The notes under the pieces: model-generated | Told to the model about the DNA's origin: nothing | The model's database searches: none | What the model saw: the letters and a program-made list of their open reading frames with translations, nothing else | DNA from: Streptosporangium album | Lineage (GTDB): Bacteria; Actinomycetota; Actinomycetes; Streptosporangiales; Streptosporangiaceae | Length of the DNA stretch: 64,000 bases | Direction: 5' to 3' | Assembly (NCBI RefSeq): GCF_014203795.1 | Contig: NZ_JACHJU010000001.1 | Span: forward strand, 4,216,001 to 4,280,000 | Shown: piece after piece, positions 1 through 16,711 of the stretch | Position numbering within the stretch: position 1 is the first letter of the stretch | Layout: every line of letters starts with the position of its first letter | Program-made: the position numbers and the translations under genes

Positions 1-2403
1 CACCAGCAGCGGCGGCGTGTCGCCGTGCGTGGCGAACAGCCCGGCGACGCAGGCGCCGAATCTGACCGGCTGCCGCAGGTGGCCCGCCCAGTAGGCCGGG
101 TCCGTCGCCTGCTCGGCGGTGATGGGCTCACCGGTGACGTTGGACCAGAACGGCAGGCTCGGCGCCTGCCGGGGCACCGAGGCGACCAGCGCGGTGAACT
201 CCGCGAGGATCGGCTCCATCATCGGCGAGTGGAACGCGTGCGAGGTGCGCAGGGCCTTGCAGCCCACCTCCTCGGCCTTCAGCGTCTCGGCGAACGCCTC
301 GACCGCGTCCGCGGGGCCGGCCACCACGCAGGTGCCGGGACCGTTGACGGTCGCCACCGACACCCCGTCCGGCAGCCGGCCGGCCAGCGCCGACTCGTCC
401 CGCTGGACGGCGAGCATCGCGCCCGGCGGCATCGACTGCATCAACGCGCCCCGGGCGGCGACCAGCCGCACCGCGTCGGCCAGGGTGAAGACCCCGGCGA
501 CGGTCGCGGCGACGTACTCGCCGATGGAGTGGCCGATCATCGCGGCCGGCCGTACCCCCCAGCTCTGCCAGAGCCGGGCCAGCGCGTACTCCACGGTGAA
601 CAGCGCCGGCTGGGTGTAGCGCGTCTGCCGGAGCGTCTCGTCGGCGTCGGGCGCGGCGCCGAACACCAGGTCGCGCAGGTCGAGGCCGAGGTGCTCGGTG
701 AGCAGGCCCGCGCACTCGTCGACGGCGGCGGCGAACACCGGCTCCGTCCGGTACAGCTCCGCGCCCATGCCGGCGTGCTGCGCGCCCTGCCCGGAGAACA
801 GGAAGGCCACCGCCGGCGGGGTGGTGCCGGCCTCCCCCTTGCGGCGGCGCTTGCGGTCCCGCAGCGCGGTGACCGCGTCGGCGCGGTCGGTGGCCGTCAC
901 CGTGGCCCGGTGCGGGTACTCCATCCGGCCCACCCGCAGCGTGTGGGCCACGTCGGCGAGGTCGAGGTCCTCGTTGGCCGTCAGGTGCCCGGCCAGCCGC
1001 TCCACCGCCGTGTCCAGCGCGGTGGCGGTCTTGGCGGAGACCTGCAGCAGGTGCGCGGGCCGCGGGGGGATCGGGTCCGCCTCGACGCGCGGCGCCTCCT
1101 CCAGGATCATGTGCGCGTTGGTGCCGCCGATGCCGAAGGAGCTGACTCCGGCGCGCCGGGGACCGCCGTCCGTCTCCCACTTGCTGAGCGTGGACGCCAC
1201 GTAGAACGGGGTGTCGGCGAAGTCGATGGCCGGGTTGGGGCGCTCGTAGTTGATCGTCGGCGGGATCAGCCCGTGCTCCAGCGCCAGCACCGCCTTGATC
1301 ACGCTGATGATGCCCGCGGCCTGGCTGAGGTGGCCGATGTTGGACTTCACCGAGCCGATGCCGCACCAGCCGCGGTCCCGCGTGGACTGCGTGTACACCG
1401 CGGACAGGGCGGCGACCTCGATCGGGTCGCCCATCGCGGTGCCGGTGCCGTGCGCCTCGACGTAGCCGATGCTGCGCGGGTCGATCCCGGCGGCCCCGAC
1501 CGCCTGCGCCACCGCGGCGGCCTGCCCGTCGACGCTGGGCGCGGAGAATCCGACCTTGCCGGCGCCGTCGTTGTTGATCGCGTTGCCCCGCACCACCGCG
1601 TGGATGTGGTCGCCGTCGGCGATGGCGTCCTCAAGCCGCTTGAGCACGGCGACGCCGACGCCGCTGCCCCAGACGGTGCCGTTCGCGTCGGCGTCGAACG
1701 GACGGCAGTGACCCTCGGGGGAGGTGAACCCCTCCACCCCGATGTATCCGGTCGCCGGCGGGTGTTCGAGGTTCACGCCGCCTGCCAGGGCCATGTCGCA
1801 CTCGCCGCCGCGCAGCGCCTCGCACGCCAGGTGGAGCGCGACCAGCGACGTGGAGCAGGCGGTGTGGACGGTCAGGCTGGGCCCGCGCAGGTTCAGCCGG
1901 TACGACACGGTGGTGGCCACGTAGTTCGGCGAGTTGGCGGTGGCCAGGCCGATGCCGTGGCGGGTCTCCCAGACCCGCTTGTTGCGGGCCAGGTTCTCCC
2001 ACAGGTACTGGTTGCCTCCGGTGCCGGCGTACACGCCGATGGCGCCGTCGTAGCGTCCCGGGTCGGTCCCGGCGTCGTTCAGCGCGGTGTAGCACGTCTC
2101 CAGGAACAGCCGGTGCTGCGGGTTGAGGATCTCCGCCTCGCGCGCGGTCAGGCCGAACAGCCCGGCGTCGAACTGGTCGTACCCCTCCACGTACGGTGCC
2201 TTCGACACCCAGCTCGGGTCGTCGACGTCCTCCTCGGACGCGCCCCTGGCCAGCTGTTCCTCGCGGGTGAAGGTGGTGATCGACTCCACACCGTCGACCA
2301 GGTTGCGCCAGAACCCGTCGATGTCGGCCGCGCCCGGCACCCGGGCGGCCATCCCCACGATGGCGATCGGTTCGACGCCCTCGTCGGCGACGTCACTGGT
2401 CAT
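1..2403 (-). CDS. Type I polyketide synthase, KS-AT (3' end beyond window)
   Basis: This is the start of a modular PKS; 801 codons are in the window and it continues past the left edge. Residues about 10-430 are a ketosynthase with the catalytic cysteine in TACSTSL (Cys183) and the two histidines in EAHGTGT and KSNIGH. After a linker comes an acyltransferase with the nucleophile in GHSIGEY (Ser626) and a downstream HAFH motif. In the family GHSIG plus HAFH points to malonyl-CoA rather than methylmalonyl-CoA, so it probably adds an unbranched C2 unit. The ATG lies inside the 3' end of the upstream NRPS gene (11-base overlap), so translation is coupled. It should accept the chain from the last carrier domain of that NRPS. 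Any reductive, carrier or release domains lie outside the window. Confidence 0.93.
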   Translation of the reverse strand, partial: MTSDVADEGVEPIAIVGMAARVPGAADIDGFWRNLVDGVESITTFTREEQLARGASEEDVDDPSWVSKAPYVEGYDQFDAGLFGLTAREAEILNPQHRLFLETCYTALNDAGTDPGRYDGAIGVYAGTGGNQYLWENLARNKRVWETRHGIGLATANSPNYVATTVSYRLNLRGPSLTVHTACSTSLVALHLACEALRGGECDMALAGGVNLEHPPATGYIGVEGFTSPEGHCRPFDADANGTVWGSGVGVAVLKRLEDAIADGDHIHAVVRGNAINNDGAGKVGFSAPSVDGQAAAVAQAVGAAGIDPRSIGYVEAHGTGTAMGDPIEVAALSAVYTQSTRDRGWCGIGSVKSNIGHLSQAAGIISVIKAVLALEHGLIPPTINYERPNPAIDFADTPFYVASTLSKWETDGGPRRAGVSSFGIGGTNAHMILEEAPRVEADPIPPRPAHLLQVSAKTATALDTAVERLAGHLTANEDLDLADVAHTLRVGRMEYPHRATVTATDRADAVTALRDRKRRRKGEAGTTPPAVAFLFSGQGAQHAGMGAELYRTEPVFAAAVDECAGLLTEHLGLDLRDLVFGAAPDADETLRQTRYTQPALFTVEYALARLWQSWGVRPAAMIGHSIGEYVAATVAGVFTLADAVRLVAARGALMQSMPPGAMLAVQRDESALAGRLPDGVSVATVNGPGTCVVAGPADAVEAFAETLKAEEVGCKALRTSHAFHSPMMEPILAEFTALVASVPRQAPSLPFWSNVTGEPITAEQATDPAYWAGHLRQPVRFGACVAGLFATHGDTPPLLV

Positions 2404-5400
2404 GGTCGTTCTCCTGTCCGGTGGTGCTGTTGACGCGTCGTGGGCGTCGGGTACGGTTGCGCCGCGCCTCGCCTCGTGAGACGGCGCGGGCGAGTTCTGA
2501 GTCGCCGCTCTGGGGGTCGTCGGAAGGGCCGCCCGCCTGGGTGTCCAGGTGGACGGCGAGGGCACGGATGTTCGGGTAGCGGAACAGGTCCACCATCCGC
2601 AGCTCACGGTCGAGCCGGACGCACAGGCGGGCGTGCACGGCGGCGAGCGCCAGTGAGTGACCGCCGATGTCGAAGAAGTTGTCGTCGGGGCCGACGGTGT
2701 CCCGTTCCAGAACCTCACGCCAGATCGCGGCGATCAGCTGCTCGGTGGCGCTCGACCCGCTCCCGGGGTTCGGGGGCGGCGCATGCGGCTCGGCGACCCG
2801 CATGGCGCCGGGCGCGGCGTCCGGCGTGACCTGTCCGGGCAGGGCGACCTCGCCCATCGGGGCGGCCGGATCGGCGGCCAGCGCGCCGACCACGTTCACG
2901 TAGTCGGCGAGCATCGCCTCGACCCTGGCCGCGTCGAACAGGTCGGGGTTGTAGACGACCTCGACACAGAACCGGCCGGCCCGCTCCGTCACGTACACGG
3001 TCATGTCGAACGGCGATCCCGGCTTGTCGACCTCGATCGTCTCGCTGCTCAACCCGGGCAGCTCCAGCCGGGGCTGCGTGAGGTTCAGCACGTTGAACAT
3101 GATCTGCACCAGCGGGGCACGGGACGGGTCCCTGCGGATGCCCAGCTTCTCGACCACGCGCTCCAGCGGCGCGGCCGGGTGCGCGGCGACGTCCAGCAGC
3201 TCGCGGGTGCACCGCCGTACGTGGGCGGCGAAGTCGGCGCCGTCGTCCGACCGCAGCCGCAGCGGGACCATGTCGATGAAGAACCCGACCAGGTCGTCGA
3301 AGGCGGCCACCCGCCGGTCGGCGACGACCGCGCCGATGACGTGGTCGGCGGTGCCGGTGAGCCGGTGGAGCAGCCGTCCGAGCCCGGCGAGCAGCACCCC
3401 CGCCGGGGTCGCCCCGAGGTCGGCGGCGAGCGCGCGGACCGCGGCGTCGGCGCCGGGCGGCAGGGCCACGCGCGCCTCGGCTCCCCGGTAGGTCTGCACG
3501 GCCGGGCGGGGCCGGTCGCGGGGCAGGTCCAGCGCGGTGGGCGCTCCGTGCAGGTGCTCGGCCCACCAGGCCAGGTCCGCGTCTCCGTCGCGCTCGTCCC
3601 GCCCGGCCCGCCAGACCGCGTAGTCGGCGTACGAGGCGCGCAGCGGCACCAGGTCCGGCGCTCGGCCGGCGGCGGCGGCCGCGTAGCAGGCGGAGAGATC
3701 GGTGTAGAGCGCGTCCTGGGACCAGCCGTCGAACACCGCGTGGTGCAGGGTCAGCGCCAGCACGTGCTCGTCGGGGCCCAGCACGTACAGCCAGGCCCGC
3801 CAGGGGGGACCGCCCGCCAGGTCGAACGGCGCGGACGCGCCGGCCGCCAGCCGGGTGCGCAGCTGAGCGTCCCGCTGTGCCCGGCCGTACCCGCGCAGGT
3901 CGACCACCGTCAGCTCCACCTCGCCCGGCGGCTCGCAGACGGCGTACGGCACGCCGGCCGTCTGCCGGATCCGCCAGCGCAGCACGGCGTGCCGCTCGGC
4001 GACGGCCCGCAGCGCCGCCCGCAGCGCCGGCACCTCCAGGGGACCGCGCAACGTCTCGGCCAGGGCGATGTTGTACGGCGCGGCCTCGGGTGCCAGCTGG
4101 TCCAGGAACCACAGGCGGCGCTGCGGCGGCGCCAGGGTCGGCGGGTGGCCGAGGGTGAGCTCCGGACCAAGCAGCCGGGCGGCCTTGTCGAACCGCCCGG
4201 CGATCTCCGGCAGGGTACGGCCGGCGAACACGTCGTCCACCGTCACGTCCAGGCCCAGCTCGTCGCGGACGGCGGCGACCAGCCGCATCGCGGTGATCGA
4301 GTCACCGCCGCCGGAGAAGAAGTCGGCGCCGACGCCCAGGCGCCGCCACACCGCCGCGAGCGCGCGTTCGGTGGCGGTCTCCCCCTCGGGTGAGCCGCCG
4401 GCCGGGCGGTCCTCGGCGGCCAGCTCCCGCAGCCTGGCCCTGTCCACCTTGCCGGAGACGTTGAGCGGCAGTCGGGGCAGGCGCAGCACCCGCCCGGGCA
4501 GCATCGCGGCGGTCAGCCGCGAGGCGGCGTAGCCGGTGTCGGCCGGGGCGTCCTCCGGTGTGAGGAACGCGACCAGCTCCAGGCCGCCGCCGGGCCCCGG
4601 CACCGCCTCCACGGCCGCCTGCGCGACCGCCGGGTGCTCCTGCAGCACGGCCGCGACCTCGCCGAGCTCGATCCGCTGGCCGCGGATCTTGACCTGTCCG
4701 TCGCGGCGGCCCAGGTAGACGAGCTGCCCGTCGTCGGCGTGGCGCACCATGTCCCCGGTCCGGTAGAGCCGCGCGCCCGCCTCGCCGGAGAACGGGTCGG
4801 GCACGAACGCCTCGGCCGTCAGCGCGGGCCTGCCCAGGTAGCCCCGGGTGACGCCGGGGCCACCGATCAGCAGCTCGCCCTCGGCCCCGCGCTCGACCAG
4901 GCGGAGCCGGTCGTCGACGACGTAGCAGCGGTGGCCGCGCGTCGGGAGGCCGATCGTGACCGGCGTGGTCTGCGGCGCGGTCAGCTCGCCGGCGACGGGC
5001 GACACCGTGGTCTCGGTGGGTCCGTAGGTGTTGACGAACCGGCGGCCCGCCGTCGCCCACCGGTTGACCAGCTCGGCCGGCACCGCGTCGCCGCCGCACA
5101 TCACCGTCCGCCAGCCGGGCAGCGCGGCCGGGTCGAGCAGGGACAGCACGGCCGGGGTGATCACCCCCCAGTCGACCCGGTGCCCGGCGATGAACCGCTC
5201 CAGCCGCGCGGGATCGGTGCGGTCGTCCTCACCGGCCAGCTGCACCGACCCGCCCACGGACAGCGGCACGAACAGGTCGAGGACGGAGGCGTCGAATCCG
5301 AGGGAGGCGAACGACAGCGCGCGGGTGCTCTGCCCGGCCTCGGTGTACGCGGCCCAGGTGACGACGTAGTCGATCAGGTTGCGGTGGGTGACGAGCACGC

Positions 5401-5914
5401 CCTTGGGACGGCCGGTGGAACCGGAGGTGTAGATCGCGTAGGCGACGTTGTCCGGCGCGGCGGGGCAGGCGGGCACGGCGGCCAGGTCGACCGGTCCGGC
5501 CGGCCCGGGTACGGCGACGCGCCGCGGGCCCGTCTCACCGACGGCCTCCGCTCCCGCCCGGTCGCACACCACGACGTCCAGACCGGCGTCGGCGGCTATG
5601 TCCCGCAGCCGCAGCCGCGGGCCGGCCGGATCCAGCGGCACGTAGCCGCCGCCGGCCAGCAGGACGCCGAGGAGCGCGACCACCATCGCGGGCCGCCGCT
5701 CCAGGCAGATCCCGACCCGGCTCTCCGGGCCGACGCCGAGCGCGCCGAGCTGGGCGGAGAGCGCCGTGGCGCGGGCGACCAGCTCGCGATAGGTGATCTC
5801 CTCGTCCCACTGCGCGACCGCGACGGCGTCCGGCACGGCCCGGGCCCGCGCCACGATGAGGTCGGCGACGCTTTCCACGGGGGAGGGCGCCGGGTGGGGC
5901 AGGCGGGCGTTCAC
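2393..5914 (-). CDS. NRPS, domain order A-T-C-T
   Basis: A 1,173-residue nonribosomal peptide synthetase. Residues about 10-505 are an adenylation domain (YTSGSTGRPKG, FDASV, NTYGPTE, YRTGD, SGKVDR). The first carrier has FFSGGGDSI (Ser539). A condensation domain (about 590-1010) has an intact HHAVFDG motif and C4-C5-like YADYAVW and IGAVVADRR. The second carrier has FFDIGGHSL (Ser1087). My hand-read specificity positions are roughly D-A-L-V-M-G-T-V-S-K; I do not assign a substrate. It starts with GTG overlapping the stop of the preceding LanB-like gene and ends inside the PKS start. The second carrier has no adenylation domain of its own, so it must be loaded in trans or receive the condensed chain and pass it to the KS-AT protein. 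Low-complexity Arg-rich C-terminus. Confidence 0.93.
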   Translation of the reverse strand: MNARLPHPAPSPVESVADLIVARARAVPDAVAVAQWDEEITYRELVARATALSAQLGALGVGPESRVGICLERRPAMVVALLGVLLAGGGYVPLDPAGPRLRLRDIAADAGLDVVVCDRAGAEAVGETGPRRVAVPGPAGPVDLAAVPACPAAPDNVAYAIYTSGSTGRPKGVLVTHRNLIDYVVTWAAYTEAGQSTRALSFASLGFDASVLDLFVPLSVGGSVQLAGEDDRTDPARLERFIAGHRVDWGVITPAVLSLLDPAALPGWRTVMCGGDAVPAELVNRWATAGRRFVNTYGPTETTVSPVAGELTAPQTTPVTIGLPTRGHRCYVVDDRLRLVERGAEGELLIGGPGVTRGYLGRPALTAEAFVPDPFSGEAGARLYRTGDMVRHADDGQLVYLGRRDGQVKIRGQRIELGEVAAVLQEHPAVAQAAVEAVPGPGGGLELVAFLTPEDAPADTGYAASRLTAAMLPGRVLRLPRLPLNVSGKVDRARLRELAAEDRPAGGSPEGETATERALAAVWRRLGVGADFFSGGGDSITAMRLVAAVRDELGLDVTVDDVFAGRTLPEIAGRFDKAARLLGPELTLGHPPTLAPPQRRLWFLDQLAPEAAPYNIALAETLRGPLEVPALRAALRAVAERHAVLRWRIRQTAGVPYAVCEPPGEVELTVVDLRGYGRAQRDAQLRTRLAAGASAPFDLAGGPPWRAWLYVLGPDEHVLALTLHHAVFDGWSQDALYTDLSACYAAAAAGRAPDLVPLRASYADYAVWRAGRDERDGDADLAWWAEHLHGAPTALDLPRDRPRPAVQTYRGAEARVALPPGADAAVRALAADLGATPAGVLLAGLGRLLHRLTGTADHVIGAVVADRRVAAFDDLVGFFIDMVPLRLRSDDGADFAAHVRRCTRELLDVAAHPAAPLERVVEKLGIRRDPSRAPLVQIMFNVLNLTQPRLELPGLSSETIEVDKPGSPFDMTVYVTERAGRFCVEVVYNPDLFDAARVEAMLADYVNVVGALAADPAAPMGEVALPGQVTPDAAPGAMRVAEPHAPPPNPGSGSSATEQLIAAIWREVLERDTVGPDDNFFDIGGHSLALAAVHARLCVRLDRELRMVDLFRYPNIRALAVHLDTQAGGPSDDPQSGDSELARAVSRGEARRNRTRRPRRVNSTTGQENDHDQ

Positions 5915-8187
5915 CGCTCACCGCCTGCGGGGGTGGGGTCGGTGATCTGCAGGCGGAGTTCGCTGAAGTAGCGGTTGCCGTGCTGGTCGGGGACCCAGGC
6001 CTGGTCGGGGGTGGGGAGGGCTTCGCTGATGGTGACGGATGCGTCGGGTCCGGCGGTGCGGAGCATGGTGCATAGGACGCCGACGTGGTGGGGGCTGGTG
6101 AGGTCGGAGTAGCAGGGTTTCACTTCGGTGCCGATCTTGACGAAGATCTGGTCGGGCAGGTTGAGACGGTGCCGCCAGGCGCGGGTGGCGAGGTAGCGTT
6201 CGCGTTCGTTGGTGATGTCGGCCAGTCCGGTCTCGGCGACGGTGGTGCGCCAGGTTTCGCGGGTGATGATCAGCCGGTCGATGGTGACGCGGGGGATGTG
6301 GGGGGCGGGCGTGGTGAGCTTGAACGCGTCCACGGCGAGTCCGTTGAGCATTCCGGCGAACATCTCGATCAGTGGCCACCGGTGTCCGTCGGGTGCGGTG
6401 GCGGTCAGGGTGCCGTTCTCGTCGGAGACGGTGACCGCGGTGGCGGGCAGCAGCCGGTCGGGCTCGGCGCCCGGTGCCGCGGCGAACCCCAGCAACCGGT
6501 CGGTGGTGCCGGTCAGCGACGGGGCGACCCGCCCGGTGTGCCGGGGCCAGGTGTCGGGATGGAGCAGCCGGACCCGGTGCTCTCCGAGGTCGGCGGTCAG
6601 CTCGTCGCGGAGCCGGTCGGCTTCGGGGTGCCAGGCGGTGAAGAGATCGCAGTCGAACGTCGGCCACGCCGCGTGCAGTTCGCCGAGGACGACCTGGTAG
6701 TCGCCGCGGTTGACGGCGTCGATGTCGGGGGCGCAGATCTGCAGGTCGGGGCTGTGTATCCGGGCGCTGGACCAACCGGGCTTCTCTGCGGGGAAGAGCC
6801 GGGCCACGGACTCGGCCAGGTCGGCGGCGGACAGCTGGACGCGGGTGCCGTCCTCCGCCAGGCCGAACAGGCTCCCCCAGCGCCGGGTGAACTCCTCGGC
6901 CACGGCGTCCGCGGGGCGCCGCCCGGTGCCCCACAACAGGCCCTGGGCCAGGGACATCAGGTCGGCCAGGCGCACCGGGGCGTCGGTGTCCTCCCGCAGA
7001 TCGTCGTACAGCTCCCGCAACGCCGCTCCGTAGGCGTCGGCCAGCGTCGCCGTCAGCCAGCGGGCGGTGGTGAGGATGATGGCCAGGGGTGGGGCGAGGT
7101 CGTCGAGGAGGGTGGCGCCGACGGTGACGTCGAGGTCGCGGGTGGTGTCTTCGTAGCAGAGGGTGCGGCCGGCGTACATCTGGCCGTCGCGGCGGCGGGG
7201 TGGGGCGCCGGTGATCGCGGTGAACTCCGCGTCGAGGGCGGCGAGGGCGTCTTTGAGTGCGGTGGGGTCGCCGGCGGTGGCGGTGATGGTGTCGCGGGCG
7301 GTGCACAGCCGGTTCAGTCCGGTCAGGGCGTGCTGCTGGAGGTCGGTTTCGCCGATGGTTTCGATGCGGGCGCGTAGGGCTTGTTCGGCGTCGCGGCCGA
7401 TGGGCAGTGCGGCGTCCCAGGTGATGAGGTCACGTTCGACGAGTCGTTCCAGGAGGAGGTAGCCGTCTTCGGGGCGGGGCAGGTGGGCGACCGCTTGGAT
7501 GGCGGGGGTGCGTCCGTCGCAGTGGGCCAGCAGGGCGGCTTCGGGTGGGGACAGGGGCAGGGGTGGTTGCATGGGGCGCAGGATCTGCCGGTCGTCCAGG
7601 GTGAGGTGGGGCAGTAGTGCGGGTGGCCACCAGCGGCGGATCTGCGGGTCTTCGGCGAGGTGGTCGGCGTAGGCGCTCATGGCCCAGCCTTCGAAGAAGA
7701 CCCGCCGCTCGCGTAGCAGGCCGGGCCCGGTGTGGACGTCCAGTGCCCGCTCGGTGCCCGAGCGGATGTCGATCCAGCAGATGGGGCCGAAGAAGCCGAT
7801 GGTCTCGTTCTTGGCGCAGTAGCGCTGCCAGTAGCGGACGACGGCGCGTTCGCGGTCGCGGCGGCGTACGTTGCGGGGGGCGTCGGGTCCTCCGGCGAGC
7901 AGGCCGTCCAGGGCGATGAGGACGCCGGGGTTCTGCCAGGTGACGGCCTCGCGGAAGAGGGGGTCGGCGGCGATCTGGCAGATTTTGCGGGCGCCGGTGG
8001 TGATGGCGTCGGCCAGTGCTTTGTCGAACGCGTCGGCGTTGCCGTGGCCGGTCAGCAGGTCGTCGGCCGCGGCCGCGGTGGCGGGGGCGGTGAAGGCGTC
8101 CAGGCCGTCGGCGGGGAATCCGGTGGTGCGCAGGAGCGCGTCCGGCCACACCGACCAGCCGGTGTTGCCCAGGTTCACCTTCGTCAC
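5911..8187 (-). CDS. LanB-like protein, copy A (lantibiotic dehydratase N-terminal family)
   Basis: A 758-residue protein that I place in the lantibiotic dehydratase N-terminal family. That family includes the tRNA-Glu-dependent glutamylation part of LanB and of split thiopeptide dehydratases. Visible family-like features are an Arg-rich helix followed by KNETIGFFGP (about 126-135), where classical LanB proteins have a TPFG-type motif, and a C-terminal stretch around VKIGTEVKPCYSDL. The length suits a glutamylation-type module without the roughly 300-residue elimination domain. GTG start, overlapping the stop of copy B; its own stop overlaps the NRPS start. Residues 1-379, 447-498, 575-611 and 627-758 match copy B almost completely; the rest diverges. 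Function is inferred: tRNA-dependent acylation or dehydration of a Ser/Thr-containing, possibly carrier-bound, intermediate. No precursor peptide is visible. Confidence 0.8.
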   Translation of the reverse strand: MTKVNLGNTGWSVWPDALLRTTGFPADGLDAFTAPATAAAADDLLTGHGNADAFDKALADAITTGARKICQIAADPLFREAVTWQNPGVLIALDGLLAGGPDAPRNVRRRDRERAVVRYWQRYCAKNETIGFFGPICWIDIRSGTERALDVHTGPGLLRERRVFFEGWAMSAYADHLAEDPQIRRWWPPALLPHLTLDDRQILRPMQPPLPLSPPEAALLAHCDGRTPAIQAVAHLPRPEDGYLLLERLVERDLITWDAALPIGRDAEQALRARIETIGETDLQQHALTGLNRLCTARDTITATAGDPTALKDALAALDAEFTAITGAPPRRRDGQMYAGRTLCYEDTTRDLDVTVGATLLDDLAPPLAIILTTARWLTATLADAYGAALRELYDDLREDTDAPVRLADLMSLAQGLLWGTGRRPADAVAEEFTRRWGSLFGLAEDGTRVQLSAADLAESVARLFPAEKPGWSSARIHSPDLQICAPDIDAVNRGDYQVVLGELHAAWPTFDCDLFTAWHPEADRLRDELTADLGEHRVRLLHPDTWPRHTGRVAPSLTGTTDRLLGFAAAPGAEPDRLLPATAVTVSDENGTLTATAPDGHRWPLIEMFAGMLNGLAVDAFKLTTPAPHIPRVTIDRLIITRETWRTTVAETGLADITNERERYLATRAWRHRLNLPDQIFVKIGTEVKPCYSDLTSPHHVGVLCTMLRTAGPDASVTISEALPTPDQAWVPDQHGNRYFSELRLQITDPTPAGGER

Positions 8188-10469
8188 CGCTCACCGCCTG
8201 CGGGGGTGGGGTCGGTGATCTGCAGGCGGAGTTCGCTGAAGTAGCGGTTGCCGTGCTGGTCGGGGACCCAGGCCTGGTCGGGGGTGGGGAGGGCTTCGCT
8301 GATGGTGACGGATGCGTCGGGTCCGGCGGTGCGGAGCATGGTGCATAGGACGCCGACGTGGTGGGGGCTGGTGAGGTCGGAGTAGCAGGGTTTCACTTCG
8401 GTGCCGATCTTGACGAAGATCTGGTCGGGCAGGTTGAGACGGTGCCGCCAGGCGCGGGTGGCGAGGTAGCGTTCGCGTTCGTTGGTGATGTCGGCCAGTC
8501 CGGTCTCGGCGACGGTGGTGCGCCAGGTTTCGCGGGTGATGATCAGCCGGTCGATGGTGACGCGGGGGATGTGGGGGGCGGGCATGGTGAGCTTGAACGC
8601 GTCCAGCAGTTGCGTGCTGAGCATCTCGGCGAACATCTCGATCAGTGGCCACCGGTGTCCGTCGGGTGCGGTGGCGGTCAGGGTGCCGTTCTCGTCGGAG
8701 ACGGTGACCGCGGTGGCGGGCAGCAGCCGGTCGGGATCGGCGCCCCGTGCTCTGTCGATGCCCAGTTGCCGGTCGCGGGGCCGGACGAGCCCGTGGCCGG
8801 TGCGGGTGGTGGTGCGCGGATAGTCCTCCGGGTAGAGGATCCGGAGCCGGCTCGGTCCCAGGTCGAGATCGAGGTCGGCACGGAGTCTGTCGGGGTCGGG
8901 ATGGAACGGGCTGAACAGCGCGCTGTCGAACGACGGCCACGCCGGGTGCAGTTCGCCGAGGACCGCCTGGTAGTCGCCGCGGTTGACGGCGTCGATGTCG
9001 GGGGCGCAGATCTGCAGGTCGGGGCTGTGTATCCGGGCGCTGGACCAGCCGGGCTTCTCTGCGGGGAAGAGCCGGGCCACGGACTCGGCCAGGTCGGCGG
9101 CGGACAGCTGGACGCGGGTGCCGCTCTCGGAGCCGGACGGCACGTCGGTCAGCTCGGCCCACCGCCGGGCGAAGTCGTCCGCCACCGTGCGGAACGGGTT
9201 GTCGCTGCCGGTGAACAGCAATCCCTGGGCGAGATACCACAGGTCCGCCAGGCGCACCGGTGTTCCGGCGTCCTCCCGGAGTTCGGTGTAGAGGTCCCGC
9301 AGGACGTCCCGGCACGCCGAGCTGATCGCGTGGGTGAGCCAGCGGGCGGTGGTGAGGATGATGGCCAGGGGCGGGGCGAGGTCGTCGAGGAGGGTGGCGC
9401 CGACGGTGACGTCGAGGTCGCGGGTGGTGTCTTCGTAGCAGAGGGTGCGGCCGGCGTACATCTGGCCGTCGCGGCGGCGGGGTGGGGCGCCGGTGATCGC
9501 GGTGAACTCCGCGTCGAGGGCGGCGAGGGCGTCTTTGAGTGCGGTGGGGTCGCCGGCGGTGGCGGTGATGGTGTCGCGGGCGGTGCACAGCCGGTTCAGT
9601 CCGGTCAGGGCGTGCTGCTGGAGGTCGGTTTCGCCGATGGTTTCGATGCGGGCGCGTAGGGCTTGTTCGGCGTCGCGGCCGATGGGCAGTGCGGCGTCCC
9701 AGGTGATGAGGTCACGTTCGACGAGTCGTTCCAGGAGGAGGTAGCCGTCTTCGGGGCGGGGCAGGTGGGCGACCGCTTGGATGGCGGGGGTGCGTCCGTC
9801 GCAGTGGGCCAGCAGGGCGGCTTCGGGTGGGGACAGGGGCAGGGGTGGTTGCATGGGGCGCAGGATCTGCCGGTCGTCCAGGGTGAGGTGGGGCAGTAGT
9901 GCGGGTGGCCACCAGCGGCGGATCTGCGGGTCTTCGGCGAGGTGGTCGGCGTAGGCGCTCATGGCCCAGCCTTCGAAGAAGACCCGCCGCTCGCGTAGCA
10001 GGCCGGGCCCGGTGTGGACGTCCAGTGCCCGCTCGGTGCCCGAGCGGATGTCGATCCAGCAGATGGGGCCGAAGAAGCCGATGGTCTCGTTCTTGGCGCA
10101 GTAGCGCTGCCAGTAGCGGACGACGGCGCGTTCGCGGTCGCGGCGGCGTACGTTGCGGGGGGCGTCGGGTCCTCCGGCGAGCAGGCCGTCCAGGGCGATG
10201 AGGACGCCGGGGTTCTGCCAGGTGACGGCCTCGCGGAAGAGGGGGTCGGCGGCGATCTGGCAGATTTTGCGGGCGCCGGTGGTGATGGCGTCGGCCAGTG
10301 CTTTGTCGAACGCGTCGGCGTTGCCGTGGCCGGTCAGCAGGTCGTCGGCCGCGGCCGCGGTGGCGGGGGCGGTGAAGGCGTCCAGGCCGTCGGCGGGGAA
10401 TCCGGTGGTGCGCAGGAGCGCGTCCGGCCACACCGACCAGCCGGTGTTGCCCAGGTTCACCTTCGTCAC
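8184..10469 (-). CDS. LanB-like protein, copy B (tandem paralogue of copy A)
   Basis: A 761-residue LanB N-terminal family protein, transcribed just before copy A. Its N-terminal 379 residues and C-terminal 132 residues are the same as copy A by eye, including KNETIGFFGP. Three blocks differ: about residues 380-449 (three residues longer than in A), 502-577 and 615-629. Inside these blocks the two proteins are clearly homologous but strongly diverged, so this is not a simple recent duplicate. GTG start overlapping the stop of the thioesterase gene, with GGTGAG as a likely ribosome binding site; the stop overlaps the GTG of copy A. If the family rule holds, each copy may recognise a different tRNA or substrate through the divergent blocks; that is inference. 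Confidence 0.8.
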   Translation of the reverse strand: MTKVNLGNTGWSVWPDALLRTTGFPADGLDAFTAPATAAAADDLLTGHGNADAFDKALADAITTGARKICQIAADPLFREAVTWQNPGVLIALDGLLAGGPDAPRNVRRRDRERAVVRYWQRYCAKNETIGFFGPICWIDIRSGTERALDVHTGPGLLRERRVFFEGWAMSAYADHLAEDPQIRRWWPPALLPHLTLDDRQILRPMQPPLPLSPPEAALLAHCDGRTPAIQAVAHLPRPEDGYLLLERLVERDLITWDAALPIGRDAEQALRARIETIGETDLQQHALTGLNRLCTARDTITATAGDPTALKDALAALDAEFTAITGAPPRRRDGQMYAGRTLCYEDTTRDLDVTVGATLLDDLAPPLAIILTTARWLTHAISSACRDVLRDLYTELREDAGTPVRLADLWYLAQGLLFTGSDNPFRTVADDFARRWAELTDVPSGSESGTRVQLSAADLAESVARLFPAEKPGWSSARIHSPDLQICAPDIDAVNRGDYQAVLGELHPAWPSFDSALFSPFHPDPDRLRADLDLDLGPSRLRILYPEDYPRTTTRTGHGLVRPRDRQLGIDRARGADPDRLLPATAVTVSDENGTLTATAPDGHRWPLIEMFAEMLSTQLLDAFKLTMPAPHIPRVTIDRLIITRETWRTTVAETGLADITNERERYLATRAWRHRLNLPDQIFVKIGTEVKPCYSDLTSPHHVGVLCTMLRTAGPDASVTISEALPTPDQAWVPDQHGNRYFSELRLQITDPTPAGGER

Positions 10470-11220
10470 CGCTCACCGCCCGTGAGGTCCGTCGACAGGA
10501 AAGTGGTCAGATCCGCCAGATTGTCCTGTAGGAAGAAGTGGCCGCCGTCAACGTGGTGCAGGACGAAACCGGCGGTGGTGTGCTGCTCCCACGGAGTCAT
10601 CTGCTCCATCGAGACGGCCCGGTCGAGCGTGCCGGTGAAGGCCGTGATCGGCACCGGCAGCGGCGGTTCCGGCTGGTACACGTAGTCGTCCAGCCAGGTG
10701 AAGTCCGCCCGCAGCGTCGGCAGCAGCAGCTCCAGCAGCTCCGGTTCGTCGGCGACCGCCTCGGGCACGCCGCCCCCGGCCACGACCCGGGCCACCAGCT
10801 CGTCGTCGGAGAGGCGGGAGAGCCCGTCGAACATGGCCGACCCACGCAGGTGCGGCGCGCGGGCGGCGCCCACGTACAGCCGGACCGGCAGGGGCGCATC
10901 GGTACGGCGCAGCCGCCGTATCACCTCGAACGCGAGCCGTCCGCCCAGCGAGTGCCCGTACAGCGCGTAGGGACGGCTGTCGGCGGTCACGGCGTCGGCC
11001 ACCGCGGTGGCCAGCTCGTCCAGGTCGATCTCGGCCGGCTCGACGATCCGGTTCTCCCTGCCCGGCAGCTGGACGCCCACGACCTCCACACCGGGAGCGA
11101 GGGCGGCCGGCCACGGATGGAACACACCCGCGCCCGCGCCGGCGTAGGGCAGGCAGAACAGCCGGAGCGCCGCCTGCGGCAGGGGCCGCGCGCACCGGAA
11201 CCAACGGGCCGTCAAGGTGG

Positions 11221-11224
<4 letters not shown>
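10466..11224 (-). CDS. Type II thioesterase (alpha/beta hydrolase)
   Basis: A 252-residue stand-alone thioesterase of the GrsT/TEII family. In modular clusters these hydrolyse mis-primed or stalled acyl groups from carrier domains. It shows the family start (FCLPYAGAGAGVF), the nucleophile motif GHSLGG, an Asp in GTLDRAV and the catalytic His in DGGHFFL, giving a complete triad. The ATG overlaps the stop of the A-T-KS gene and its own stop overlaps the LanB-like copy B start, so all are probably on one transcript. The C-terminus ends in the same Gly-Gly-Glu-Arg as both LanB-like proteins because of the shared 15-bp junction sequence. No integrated thioesterase is visible in the window, so chain release may occur elsewhere. 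Confidence 0.93.
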
Positions 11225-14658
<3,434 letters not shown>

Positions 14659-14872
14659 TATCCGAAATCCTGCACGTTTCTCACTATCCGGATCCGCCGT
14701 TACCGCGTGTTGTGCCTTTCCACATGATTTGTGGCTCGCTGACATGTGGAACGTTAAAGGGCGGACATTTCCGATCATTAGCCATACGATTGCTATGTCC
14801 GCAAACGTGGCTAATACGGCTTGGGCGTGTTTCCTCGGGGCGGATCAGTGAGGCCCAAGGCGGAGGACAGGC
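14659..14872. promoter_or_regulatory. Divergent control region with three 8-bp inverted repeats
   Basis: A 214-bp AT-richer segment between the biosynthetic operon and the SARP gene. It holds three perfect inverted repeats: TTCCACAT/ATGTGGAA (14718-14725 and 14744-14751), GCGGACAT/ATGTCCGC (14761-14768 and 14795-14802) and ATTAGCCA/TGGCTAAT (14777-14784 and 14808-14815). The second and third interleave. They are candidate operators for the SARP or for another regulator, and both promoters must lie here. I could not place -10/-35 boxes with confidence. Confidence 0.6.
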
Positions 14873-16711
14873 ATGACCGTCGACAAGGCTGTTCCCGCAT
14901 ACGACTTTCAGATCCTCGGGCCGCTCCGGCTCTGTCGGGACGGAATCACCGTGGCGCTGCCGGCACGCCACCCCCGCATGCTCCTGGCGGTGCTGCTGCT
15001 GCACAACGGCGAGATCGTCGCCGAGGGGCGGCTGCTGGAGCAGGTGTGGGGCCAGAGCGCCGGCAGCATGATCGCTCTGCGCACCGCCGTCTCGCGGTTG
15101 CGCTCCTGGATGCGTGAGGCGGCCGGCGCCGTCGCCTCCATCGAGCACGTCGACAGTGGATACCGGCTGCGGCTACCGGGCCGGTCCATCGACGCGGCCC
15201 GGTTCCGCGCCGTCCTGGCCGCCGATTCCGACACCGCCGGCATGGACCCCCACCAGCGGCTGGCCGACCTGATGAACGCGCTCGAACTGTGGCGTGGTCC
15301 CGTGCTGGACGGCGCCCCCGACGGCGTGCGAGAGGACTCCGCGGCCCAGGGGCTGGACGATGATCACGCCATGTGCCTGCAGCGGCTGGCCGTGCTCTCC
15401 ATCGCGGTCCAGGCCCCCGAACTGCTGTTGCCGAGGACCCGAGCCCTGGCCCGGGCACGGCCGTTCGACGAGCCGCTGCACACGCGCCTGATCGAGCTGT
15501 ACGCCGCCTGCGGCCGGCCCGCGGAGGCGCTCATGGAGTACGAGCGGCTGCGATCCCGGCTCGCCGACGAGCTGGGCGTCGCGCCCAGCGCGGACGCGCA
15601 ACGCGCCTACCTCACCCTGCTCGACCAGGACCCTCCGCCGCTCGGCGGGTTCGAGCGGACCTACGGCATGGGATGGGGGCGCCAGGTCGTGCCCCACCAG
15701 GTCCCCGCCGACATCGCCGACTTCACCGGGCGGGACAAGGCGACCGCCGTACTCCTCGACCACCTGGGCGGGGTGCTGAACGATCCGACCCGGCCGGCCG
15801 CGCTGGTCGCGGGTGTCACCGGTCCGGCCGGAGCCGGCAAGTCCACCCTGGCGGTGCACGTCGCACACCGGCTGATGGCGACGTGCACCGACGGCCAGCT
15901 CTACGCCGATCTGGGCGGCACCGGAGCCGCTCCCGAACCCCCGGCCTCCGTGCTCGGACGGTTCCTGCGGGCGCTCGGAGTCGGACAGACCGCGGTCCCG
16001 GAGGACCTGGCCGAGCGCACGGCCCTGTACCGCAGCCTCATGAACAGCCGCCGGATCCTGGTCGTGCTGGACGACGCCGCGGGGGAGGCTCAGGTGCGGC
16101 CGTTGCTCCCCGGCTCGCCGACATGCTCGGTCCTCATCACCAGCCGGTCCCGGCTGGTGGGTTTCAGCGGTGCGAGAATCGTGGATCTCGACCGGTTCGA
16201 CGTCGATCACGCCATCCATCTGCTGGCGGCCGTCATCGGGCACGAACGGGTGGTCGAAGAGCCCGAGGCCGCGGCCGAACTGGTCCGGCTGTGCGGCAGG
16301 CTGCCCCTGGCGGTGCGCATCTGCGGCGCCCGGCTCGCCGCCCGCCCGCACTGGCCGCTCTCCGGCCTGGTCGCCGTGTTACGCGACGAACGCCGCCGTC
16401 TGGACGAGTTGAGCATCGCGGACCTGACCGTGCGGGACGGTCTGCGGCAGAGCTACGCCCGGATGAGGGAGGATGCCCGGCAGACACTGATCCGGCTGGC
16501 CAGGCTGGGAGCGGTCGAGTTCACGGTCGGCACCGTCGCCGCCGTCTGCGGCTTGGACCACATGGCCGCCGAGGACTGTCTGGACGCCCTGATCGAGGCC
16601 CGCTCCGTCTCGGTGGTCGGCACCGGGCAGGCCGGGATGGTCCGCTACCGCCTCGACGACCTGGTCCGGCTGTTCGTCCTCTACCCGGGCACGGCCCGGC
16701 CGCCGGTCTGA
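14873..16711 (+). CDS. SARP-family transcriptional activator with NB-ARC domain
   Basis: A 612-residue AfsR/SARP-type regulator and the likely pathway-specific activator of the divergent operon. Order: OmpR-like winged-helix DNA-binding domain (about 10-105), bacterial transcriptional activator domain (about 110-255), then an NB-ARC-type ATPase with P-loop GPAGAGKST (about 318-326), a Walker B-like ILVVLDD and LITSR. It stops soon after the ATPase winged-helix part; the TPR domain of full-length AfsR is absent. ATG with GGAGG five bases upstream. Codon 503 (16379-16381) is TTA, rare in this GC range; in Streptomyces and relatives TTA in a regulator makes expression depend on the bldA leucyl-tRNA. 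Confidence 0.92.
   Translation: MTVDKAVPAYDFQILGPLRLCRDGITVALPARHPRMLLAVLLLHNGEIVAEGRLLEQVWGQSAGSMIALRTAVSRLRSWMREAAGAVASIEHVDSGYRLRLPGRSIDAARFRAVLAADSDTAGMDPHQRLADLMNALELWRGPVLDGAPDGVREDSAAQGLDDDHAMCLQRLAVLSIAVQAPELLLPRTRALARARPFDEPLHTRLIELYAACGRPAEALMEYERLRSRLADELGVAPSADAQRAYLTLLDQDPPPLGGFERTYGMGWGRQVVPHQVPADIADFTGRDKATAVLLDHLGGVLNDPTRPAALVAGVTGPAGAGKSTLAVHVAHRLMATCTDGQLYADLGGTGAAPEPPASVLGRFLRALGVGQTAVPEDLAERTALYRSLMNSRRILVVLDDAAGEAQVRPLLPGSPTCSVLITSRSRLVGFSGARIVDLDRFDVDHAIHLLAAVIGHERVVEEPEAAAELVRLCGRLPLAVRICGARLAARPHWPLSGLVAVLRDERRRLDELSIADLTVRDGLRQSYARMREDARQTLIRLARLGAVEFTVGTVAAVCGLDHMAAEDCLDALIEARSVSVVGTGQAGMVRYRLDDLVRLFVLYPGTARPPV

Follow-up and report, generated by a model that had tools for sequence, protein, structure and literature searches.

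Two tandem PEARL-like LanB proteins, differing in three conserved blocks, in a nonribosomal peptide/polyketide gene cluster of Streptosporangium album

The stretch of DNA analysed here (the window; 64,000 nt, positions 4216001-4280000 of the 9.02-Mb genome of Streptosporangium album) contains two adjacent genes for LanB-like proteins, copy A (type W) and copy B (type S), which are 89% identical to each other and lie within an operon of nonribosomal peptide synthetase (NRPS) and polyketide synthase (PKS) genes. Taken as a whole, the observations are probably best explained by two ligases of the peptide aminoacyl-tRNA ligase (PEARL) type, which would use ATP and aminoacyl-tRNA, act on a carboxylate made by a thioesterase (TE) and serve different steps. 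That LanB-like proteins are linked to NRPS is already known; what is new is a family of TE-PEARL clusters free of the ureido-forming motif and a mode of apparent gene conversion that preserves three blocks of the protein.

Both proteins match PF04738, copy A at E 1.2e-27 with 96.8 bits and copy B at E 4.7e-32 with 111.4 bits, against a cut-off of 28 bits; neither matches a further Pfam family at E <= 0.1 or any NCBIfam model, and each gene overlaps the preceding one by 4 nt. This bears out an earlier note on the letters of this DNA, which had described two LanB-like proteins translationally coupled between a thioesterase and an NRPS. The predicted fold agrees with that description: the AlphaFold2 model of copy B (predicted local distance difference test, 91.7; predicted TM-score, 0.90) has 11 matches in the PDB at E <= 0.001, all LanB-type enzyme chains, which places it with the LanBB enzymes TbtB and GodF and the full LanBs NisB, MibB and MadB (TMq 0.59-0.68). 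Searching the PDB by sequence, with a single copy as the query, gave nothing at E <= 1, and a profile search found TbtB at 3e-10; two further chains in the profile search, Z4 c3i and Z4 c3ii (E 0.01-0.02), were taken as chance matches. The R-x-TPFG motif typical of class I LanB is not in the two copies, in which KNETIGFFGP stands instead. The earlier suggestion that this motif marks a distinct clade holds as far as tested, its lysine, K126, being present in 128 of 128 related sequences. The one other PF04738 gene in the genome encodes a canonical LanB with RRPTPFG that is short (541 aa, PF04738 matched to position 492 of 649); it adjoins an open reading frame (ORF) for a 63-aa peptide rich in Cys, Ser and Thr and an ISL3-type transposase gene (L008:4477-8049, contig C8).

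The partners expected of a pathway to ribosomally synthesized and post-translationally modified peptides (RiPPs) were not seen. The elimination domain PF14028 was not found in the host genome by a search over 16 genomes of the genus, the host among them, that was positive in 11, nor was it found in the cluster proteins run against Pfam. Translation of four gaps in the cluster (94-204 nt) showed no RiPP-like ORF; one of these gaps holds an MbtH gene. To this extent the claim that precursor and elimination domain are missing has held up; LanC, also named in it, was not searched for. Both proteins have the LanB fold without an elimination domain by which PEARLs are recognised, and they differ from LanBs in that no PF14028 was found in their genome, no precursor was seen, TPFG is absent and the ATP site is retained.

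The ATP site was located by mapping published BhaBCTrp and TglB residue numbers and spacings onto copy B rather than by alignment to a PEARL sequence; likewise, SnaE, TglB and BhaBCTrp were likened through published descriptions and residue numbers and not sequence to sequence. In this mapping R34, Y205, Y426 and R429 of BhaBCTrp correspond to R20, Y123, Y338 and R341 of copy B, E575/H577 to E503/H505, R715 to R643, F755 to F682, K763 to K690 and E813/R815 to E743/R745, with the spacings Y-x2-R, E-x-H, F-x7-K, E-x-R and the 140 residues from E575 to R715 all reproduced. Ten residues (R20, Y123, R341, D481, E503, H505, R643, K690, E743 and R745) are invariant in an alignment of 40 sequences, termed A1, in which Y338 is found in 36 and F682 in 39. 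The same ten are kept in 126-128 members of a wider set of 128 (114 sequences from named loci and 14 from further loci, with overlapping species, G003 and the partial G097_W being omitted), where Y338 occurs in 127 and position 682 is F in 90 and Y in 38. An ATP-grasp-like site as in PEARLs, made up of the equivalents of E575, H577, R715, F755, K763, E813 and R815, is present by this mapping, and its residues are shared with the RiPP PEARLs TglB, BhaBCTrp and AmmB of the 3-thiaglutamate, bha and ammosamide systems (PMC11962472, PMC12945691). Two of the three mutation-tested tRNA-site residues are also common, Y205 and R429 matching Y123 and R341 (128/128 each); the third, Arg208, is Lys in the pair. 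Judged from these residues, the pair is PEARL-like, with some tested tRNA-site residues unlike those of characterised PEARLs.

An improbable alternative is that the pair glutamylates Ser or Thr in the LanBB manner, for example at the predicted terminal Ser of the product, and that another protein eliminates the glutamate to leave a dehydroamino acid. The fold common with TbtB and MibB, the CCA-site residue that differs from the PEARL Arg and the Ser-specific module predicted in an identically organised cluster of Micromonospora okii (PMC8698034) would suit this; the missing PF14028 in genome and cluster proteins and the retention of ATP-site residues that LanBs do not need (PMC11962472) argue against it, and it leaves the presence of two to three copies unexplained. 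Of the tRNA-dependent step envisaged in the earlier note, aminoacyl transfer stands as the best explanation, while Ser/Thr dehydration is unlikely, given that the genome search gave no PF14028 and that the residues of the ATP site have been kept.

The near-duplicate nature of the two genes, absent from the earlier note, emerged on comparing the copies. They are identical over 1,097 nt from the start codon and over further long stretches, interrupted by three diverged blocks. In the host (G000), 3 of 1746 nt differ outside the blocks (99.8% identity) and 170 of 525 inside (68%). Block limits were set on this pair and then applied to other genomes (residues 373-452, 499-580 and 611-623 for counts; 378-452, 500-580 and 612-622 for trees and for Micromonospora identities). 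The W and S copies differ at 47/1740 positions outside and 160/525 inside the blocks in G011 (2.7% outside), at 90/1740 and 175/525 in G006 (5.2% outside), at 157/1563 and 162/525 in G004, and at 197/1743 and 199/525 in G095; in the three-copy genome G007 the counts are 164/1740 and 166/525 for W/S1, 168/1740 and 167/525 for W/S2, and 184/1746 and 48/525 for S1/S2. The counts outside the blocks indicate that the copies of G000 have been homogenised almost completely, and those of G007, G004 and G095 only in part or longer ago. Long identical stretches are hard to assemble from short reads, and a collapsed repeat could in principle create such near-identity; we consider this scarcely credible here, since the same block pattern recurs in G011 (a single 9.0-Mb contig) and G006 (a 10.3-Mb contig), where the two copies differ outside the blocks by 2.7% and 5.2%, respectively.

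Comparison of the same type across species gives 9.9-10.6% nucleotide differences outside and 7.2% inside the blocks for G000-G011, 13.0% and 11.0-16.4% for G000-G006, 12.6-13.0% and 11.0-16.4% for G011-G006, and 17.6-18.7% and 19.0% for G000-G095. Trees of 42 sequences chosen from the 128 conflict between the two parts. In the flank tree the copies pair by genome in G000, G011, G006 and G095 (supports 1.0, 1.0 and 0.97 for the last three), copies of G007 and G004 that occupy the same position pair with each other across the two species, and all these Streptosporangiaceae copies, W included, join Micromonospora copy 1 (0.93). The block tree groups Streptosporangiaceae W with Micromonospora copy 2 (1.0) and S with copy 1 (0.78). 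Two-copy Micromonospora loci have copies 55-63% identical outside the blocks, and copy 1 is S-like and copy 2 W-like in 33 of 33 (of 35 loci listed; the list covers 35 of 36 loci, L130 being left out). This conflict suggests that the W/S split is older than these genera and that the W gene has apparently acquired an S-type chassis and retained its own blocks. Block-preserving gene conversion that keeps the W and S chassis alike is, from these patterns, the best explanation. Gene order is W,S in G000, G011, G006, G095 and G097, S,W,S in G007, and S,W plus a third copy, mostly N and omitted from the counts, in G004. A single LanB-like gene in two pieces in G003 (L053:8899-11146) is a mosaic of W block 1 and S blocks 2-3. 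In the open-licence literature searched, mostly as titles and the beginnings of abstracts, there was no report of a tandem W/S pattern.

The 99.8% identity outside the blocks and a copy number varying from 1 to 3 would also be compatible with two redundant copies that raise gene dosage, carry out the same reaction and differ neutrally in the blocks. This is distinctly unlikely, as the block types are conserved from one species to another to much the same degree as the remaining sequence (7-19% nucleotide differences inside, 10-19% outside), and the blocks group across genera (support 1.0 for W, 0.78 for S), having been kept while the rest was converted. In the published model of BhaBCTrp, acceptor-peptide contacts are predicted at S503, S619, K620 and T681, together with a pocket helix at 580-590 (PMC11962472). 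By residue offset, and not from model coordinates, these correspond here to about 415-431, 547, 548, 609 and, for the helix, 508-518, so that four of the five equivalents fall inside blocks 1 and 2 and that of T681 precedes block 3 by two residues. The residues contacting CCA (Y123, K126, R341) and the C-terminal ATP residues belong to the homogenised part; E503 and H505 are inside block 2, yet are the same in both types. With contacts in or beside the blocks and CCA and ATP residues mostly outside them, the blocks look like candidate specificity determinants on the acceptor side, although they may instead form an aminoacyl pocket or touch the body of the tRNA. How PEARLs recognise acceptor and aminoacyl-tRNA was stated in 2025 to be not known (PMC11962472). 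The same chassis carrying two conserved sets of blocks resembles a natural block-swap experiment and singles out about 175 residues.

The closest published precedent is SnaE, annotated as a lantibiotic dehydratase in the threopeptin NRPS/PKS cluster of Stackebrandtia nassauensis, for which gene omission shows a requirement in Thr addition and a mechanism with ATP and Thr-tRNA was proposed in 2024 (PMC11212132). The same work counted roughly two thousand NRPS/PKS clusters that carry an enzyme annotated in this way and noted fusions of SnaE-like enzymes to TE and thiolation (T) domains, so the hybrid logic that the earlier note held to be of a new kind is not new. The two systems share a LanB-like enzyme in an NRPS/PKS cluster, the absence of a precursor peptide and a stand-alone TE, and the addition of one amino acid to a nonribosomal product, as by SnaE, is what we propose for the Streptosporangium pair. 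They differ in that SnaE is tied, via chain reversal, to a ureido-forming condensation (C) domain with the motif EHHXXHDG (PMC11212132), none of which was found in the Streptosporangium cluster, and in that the present family has 1-3 tandem copies of two types and another NRPS/PKS architecture. RiPP PEARL clusters are similar in holding several PEARLs that add different residues in turn, but they use a ribosomal carrier peptide, none of which was seen here, and their enzymes are far less alike (BhaBCAla and BhaBCTrp, 27% identity; PMC11962472).

The cluster family recurs in many actinomycetes, often as a TE-PEARL fusion. At E <= 1e-10, relatives were found in 8 of the 16 genomes searched in the genus and in 71 of 341 in the family; one scan of genome contigs gave at least 424, and counts were made on the best 75 loci. 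As to the gene order that the earlier note proposed to survey, 64 of these 75 have an A-T-C-type NRPS (A, adenylation) beside the LanB gene, 56 a TE adjacent or fused, and 53 both. There are 43 TE-LANB fusions, 36 of them in Micromonospora; some fused LANB-LANB labels are perhaps split matches of one gene (e.g. L072, L108, L132). Of the 75 loci, 41 show an A-T-KS starter (KS, ketosynthase) and 19 a DUF6002 protein, 5 are of the LysW/sulfotransferase kind and 10 show none of these, some of them at contig edges. The KS active-site Cys is present in 31 of the 34 rows listed, and the search pattern did not match the other 3. Among plasmid records there were 16 matches, all of them at or below 60% identity.

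C motifs were sought by regular expression in genes from a simple caller, which misses cut or miscalled genes (in one 20-locus set, 4 of the 20 were short contigs). The ureido motif is absent from the three C motifs of the cluster itself (LHHAVFDG, VHHAVFDA and THHIVGDG), from all 90 C motifs of the best 75 loci (67 of which have C motifs) and from the 16 of 12 further loci of the same kind (L049-L060, partly of the same species). It does lie near distant relatives, about 37% identical, in 5 of 24 loci (L065 and L066, 2/4 of L065-L068; L148, L150 and L151, 3/20 of L144-L163), any C motif being visible in 18 of the 24. These five loci would favour SnaE-like PEARLs acting on an inert carboxylate from a ureido-forming C domain, a reading that we hold to be even less probable than glutamylation for the pair, the motif being found neither in its own cluster nor among the 90. 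Because 0/90 C motifs are ureido-type, the published chain-reversal explanation does not cover this family. NRPS-linked PEARL-like enzymes are thus apparently not bound to ureido chain reversal, and where they occur without a ureido-forming C domain the free carboxylate needs another explanation.

We propose that each enzyme would phosphorylate, with ATP, the free carboxylate of a small assembly-line product, and that the activated carboxylate would then react with the amino group carried by an aminoacyl-tRNA, so that one residue is added off the thioester line. As no ureido-forming C domain was found, the carboxylate would most likely come from the adjacent TE, which in relatives is often fused. 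W and S would share an ATP/tRNA-CCA chassis, with the three blocks setting the acceptor (or the aminoacyl group), and would act at two different steps, giving two successive additions. The use of tRNA and ATP, hydrolysis before ligation and two successive additions are what we infer by analogy from the predicted fold, the conserved residues, the gene order, the absence of the ureido motif where it was sought and the conservation of W and S. A role of the TE in handing a tRNA-bound chain over to a T domain was not adopted; its motif, GHSLG (in relatives GHSMG, 47, and GHSLG, 10), is of the kind found in ordinary hydrolytic TEs. A more specific version, in which the TE frees an early acid in mid-line, S and W add two residues from tRNA, the A-T-C-T protein takes the product back and about 175 residues carry the whole W/S specificity, is possible but unlikely; the A-T-C-T protein does have a second T domain without an A domain.

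Several points weigh against the proposed TE-fed ligation. The TE may have an ordinary editing role instead, and 11 of the 64 loci with an A-T-C-type NRPS show no TE beside the LanB gene, at least two of which (L071 and L081) begin at the LanB gene on a contig edge. Because Micromonospora contributes 36 of the 75 loci and 36 of the 43 TE-LANB fusions, these events are not independent. R208, which in characterised PEARLs is conserved and contacts the tRNA 3' CCA, corresponds to Lys126 in 128/128 (in A1, 37 K and 3 R). By offset only, the equivalent of Q201 is Tyr119 in 128/128 and that of R197, position 115, a variable small or aliphatic residue. D558 (E542 of TglB) maps to the invariant D481 only with a shift allowed; D488 is closer by spacing, yet present in 16/40 of A1. 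The predicted peptide contacts of BhaBCTrp are non-essential when mutated one by one (PMC11962472), and tRNA use by the two proteins is suggested by conserved residues rather than by direct evidence.

The genes lie in a minus-strand operon, mostly coupled by 4-nt overlaps, in the order A-T-KS, thioesterase, copy A, copy B, A-T-C-T NRPS and KS-AT-KR-DH-T PKS (AT, acyltransferase; KR, ketoreductase; DH, dehydratase). Beyond the left edge of the window the PKS is followed by an MbtH gene, C-A-T, C-A-T-TE-MFS (MFS, major facilitator superfamily) and a TauD-type dioxygenase. The C-A-T-TE and MFS parts form a single 1831-aa ORF (L006:8206-13701; MFS_1, E 3.6e-27), so a transporter domain, of which the earlier note had none in view, is fused to the last NRPS. 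Features of the window are given in Table 1, the nucleotide coordinates of the blocks having been derived by hand from residue numbers.

Table 1. Features in the window, numbered from its first nucleotide
Feature	Description	Coordinates	Strand
Copy A (type W)	PEARL-like LanB_N protein, 761 aa	8184..10469	-
Copy B (type S)	PEARL-like LanB_N protein, 758 aa	5911..8187	-
Diverged block 1, copy A	aa 373-455	9105..9353	-
Diverged block 2, copy A	aa 502-583	8721..8966	-
Diverged block 3, copy A	aa 614-626	8592..8630	-
Diverged block 1, copy B	aa 373-452	6832..7071	-
Diverged block 2, copy B	aa 499-580	6448..6693	-
Diverged block 3, copy B	aa 611-623	6319..6357	-
Thioesterase	stand-alone, GHSLG motif; PEARL-fused in many relatives	10466..11224	-
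A-T-KS NRPS/PKS protein	AT not found; exact start uncertain	11221..14778	-
A-T-C-T NRPS	C motif LHHAVFDG, not ureido-type	2393..5914	-
KS-AT part of KS-AT-KR-DH-T PKS	whole PKS 1790 aa; runs past left edge	1..2403	-
SARP-type regulator	Trans_reg_C, BTAD, NB-ARC; divergent from operon	14873..16711	+

Judged by eye, the A domains in the two final modules have signatures that are presumably Asn-like and Ser-like. The orphan cluster pks/nrps-3 of Micromonospora okii TP-A0468 and strain TP-A0316 has the same module order as the Streptosporangium cluster (A/T-KS, A/T-C/T, KS/AT/KR/DH/ACP, C/A-Asn/T and C/A-Ser/T-Te, with ACP for acyl carrier protein), and antiSMASH-based analysis gave Asn and Ser there too, with x-pk-x-y-pk-Asn-Ser as the predicted product (PMC8698034). 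The word lantibiotic occurs 0 times in the text of that paper; two ORF numbers skipped in pks/nrps-3 would, from the architecture, fit the TE-LANB and LANB genes of L091.

Some relatives stand in other surroundings. At L056-L060, L100, L107-L110 and other loci, two proteins stand in place of the A-T loading part or are joined with it: a DUF6002 protein, of a family unmentioned in the open-licence literature searched, and a protein with a GTGGLA motif and no Pfam match in the one scanned (L059). Loci L062-L064, L131-L133, L136 and L142, mostly from Actinomadura, encode a PEARL relative of about 50% identity, in most cases with LysW, a LysX-like ligase and transketolase halves, and mostly with a sulfotransferase, KAS III and a protein matching the phage capsid family PF05065 (Pfam run on L063 only); the LysW amino-carrier tail is EEDWGE in the three read. 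Distant PEARL relatives also occur in two-gene sets, convergent at L068:7881-12439 and tandem, with no NRPS seen, at L067:6470-11248. In the window itself, GC skew is 0.23-0.24 across the two LanB genes (6001-10000), compared with -0.07 to 0.11 in other 2-kb windows, which makes their coding strand unusually C-rich.

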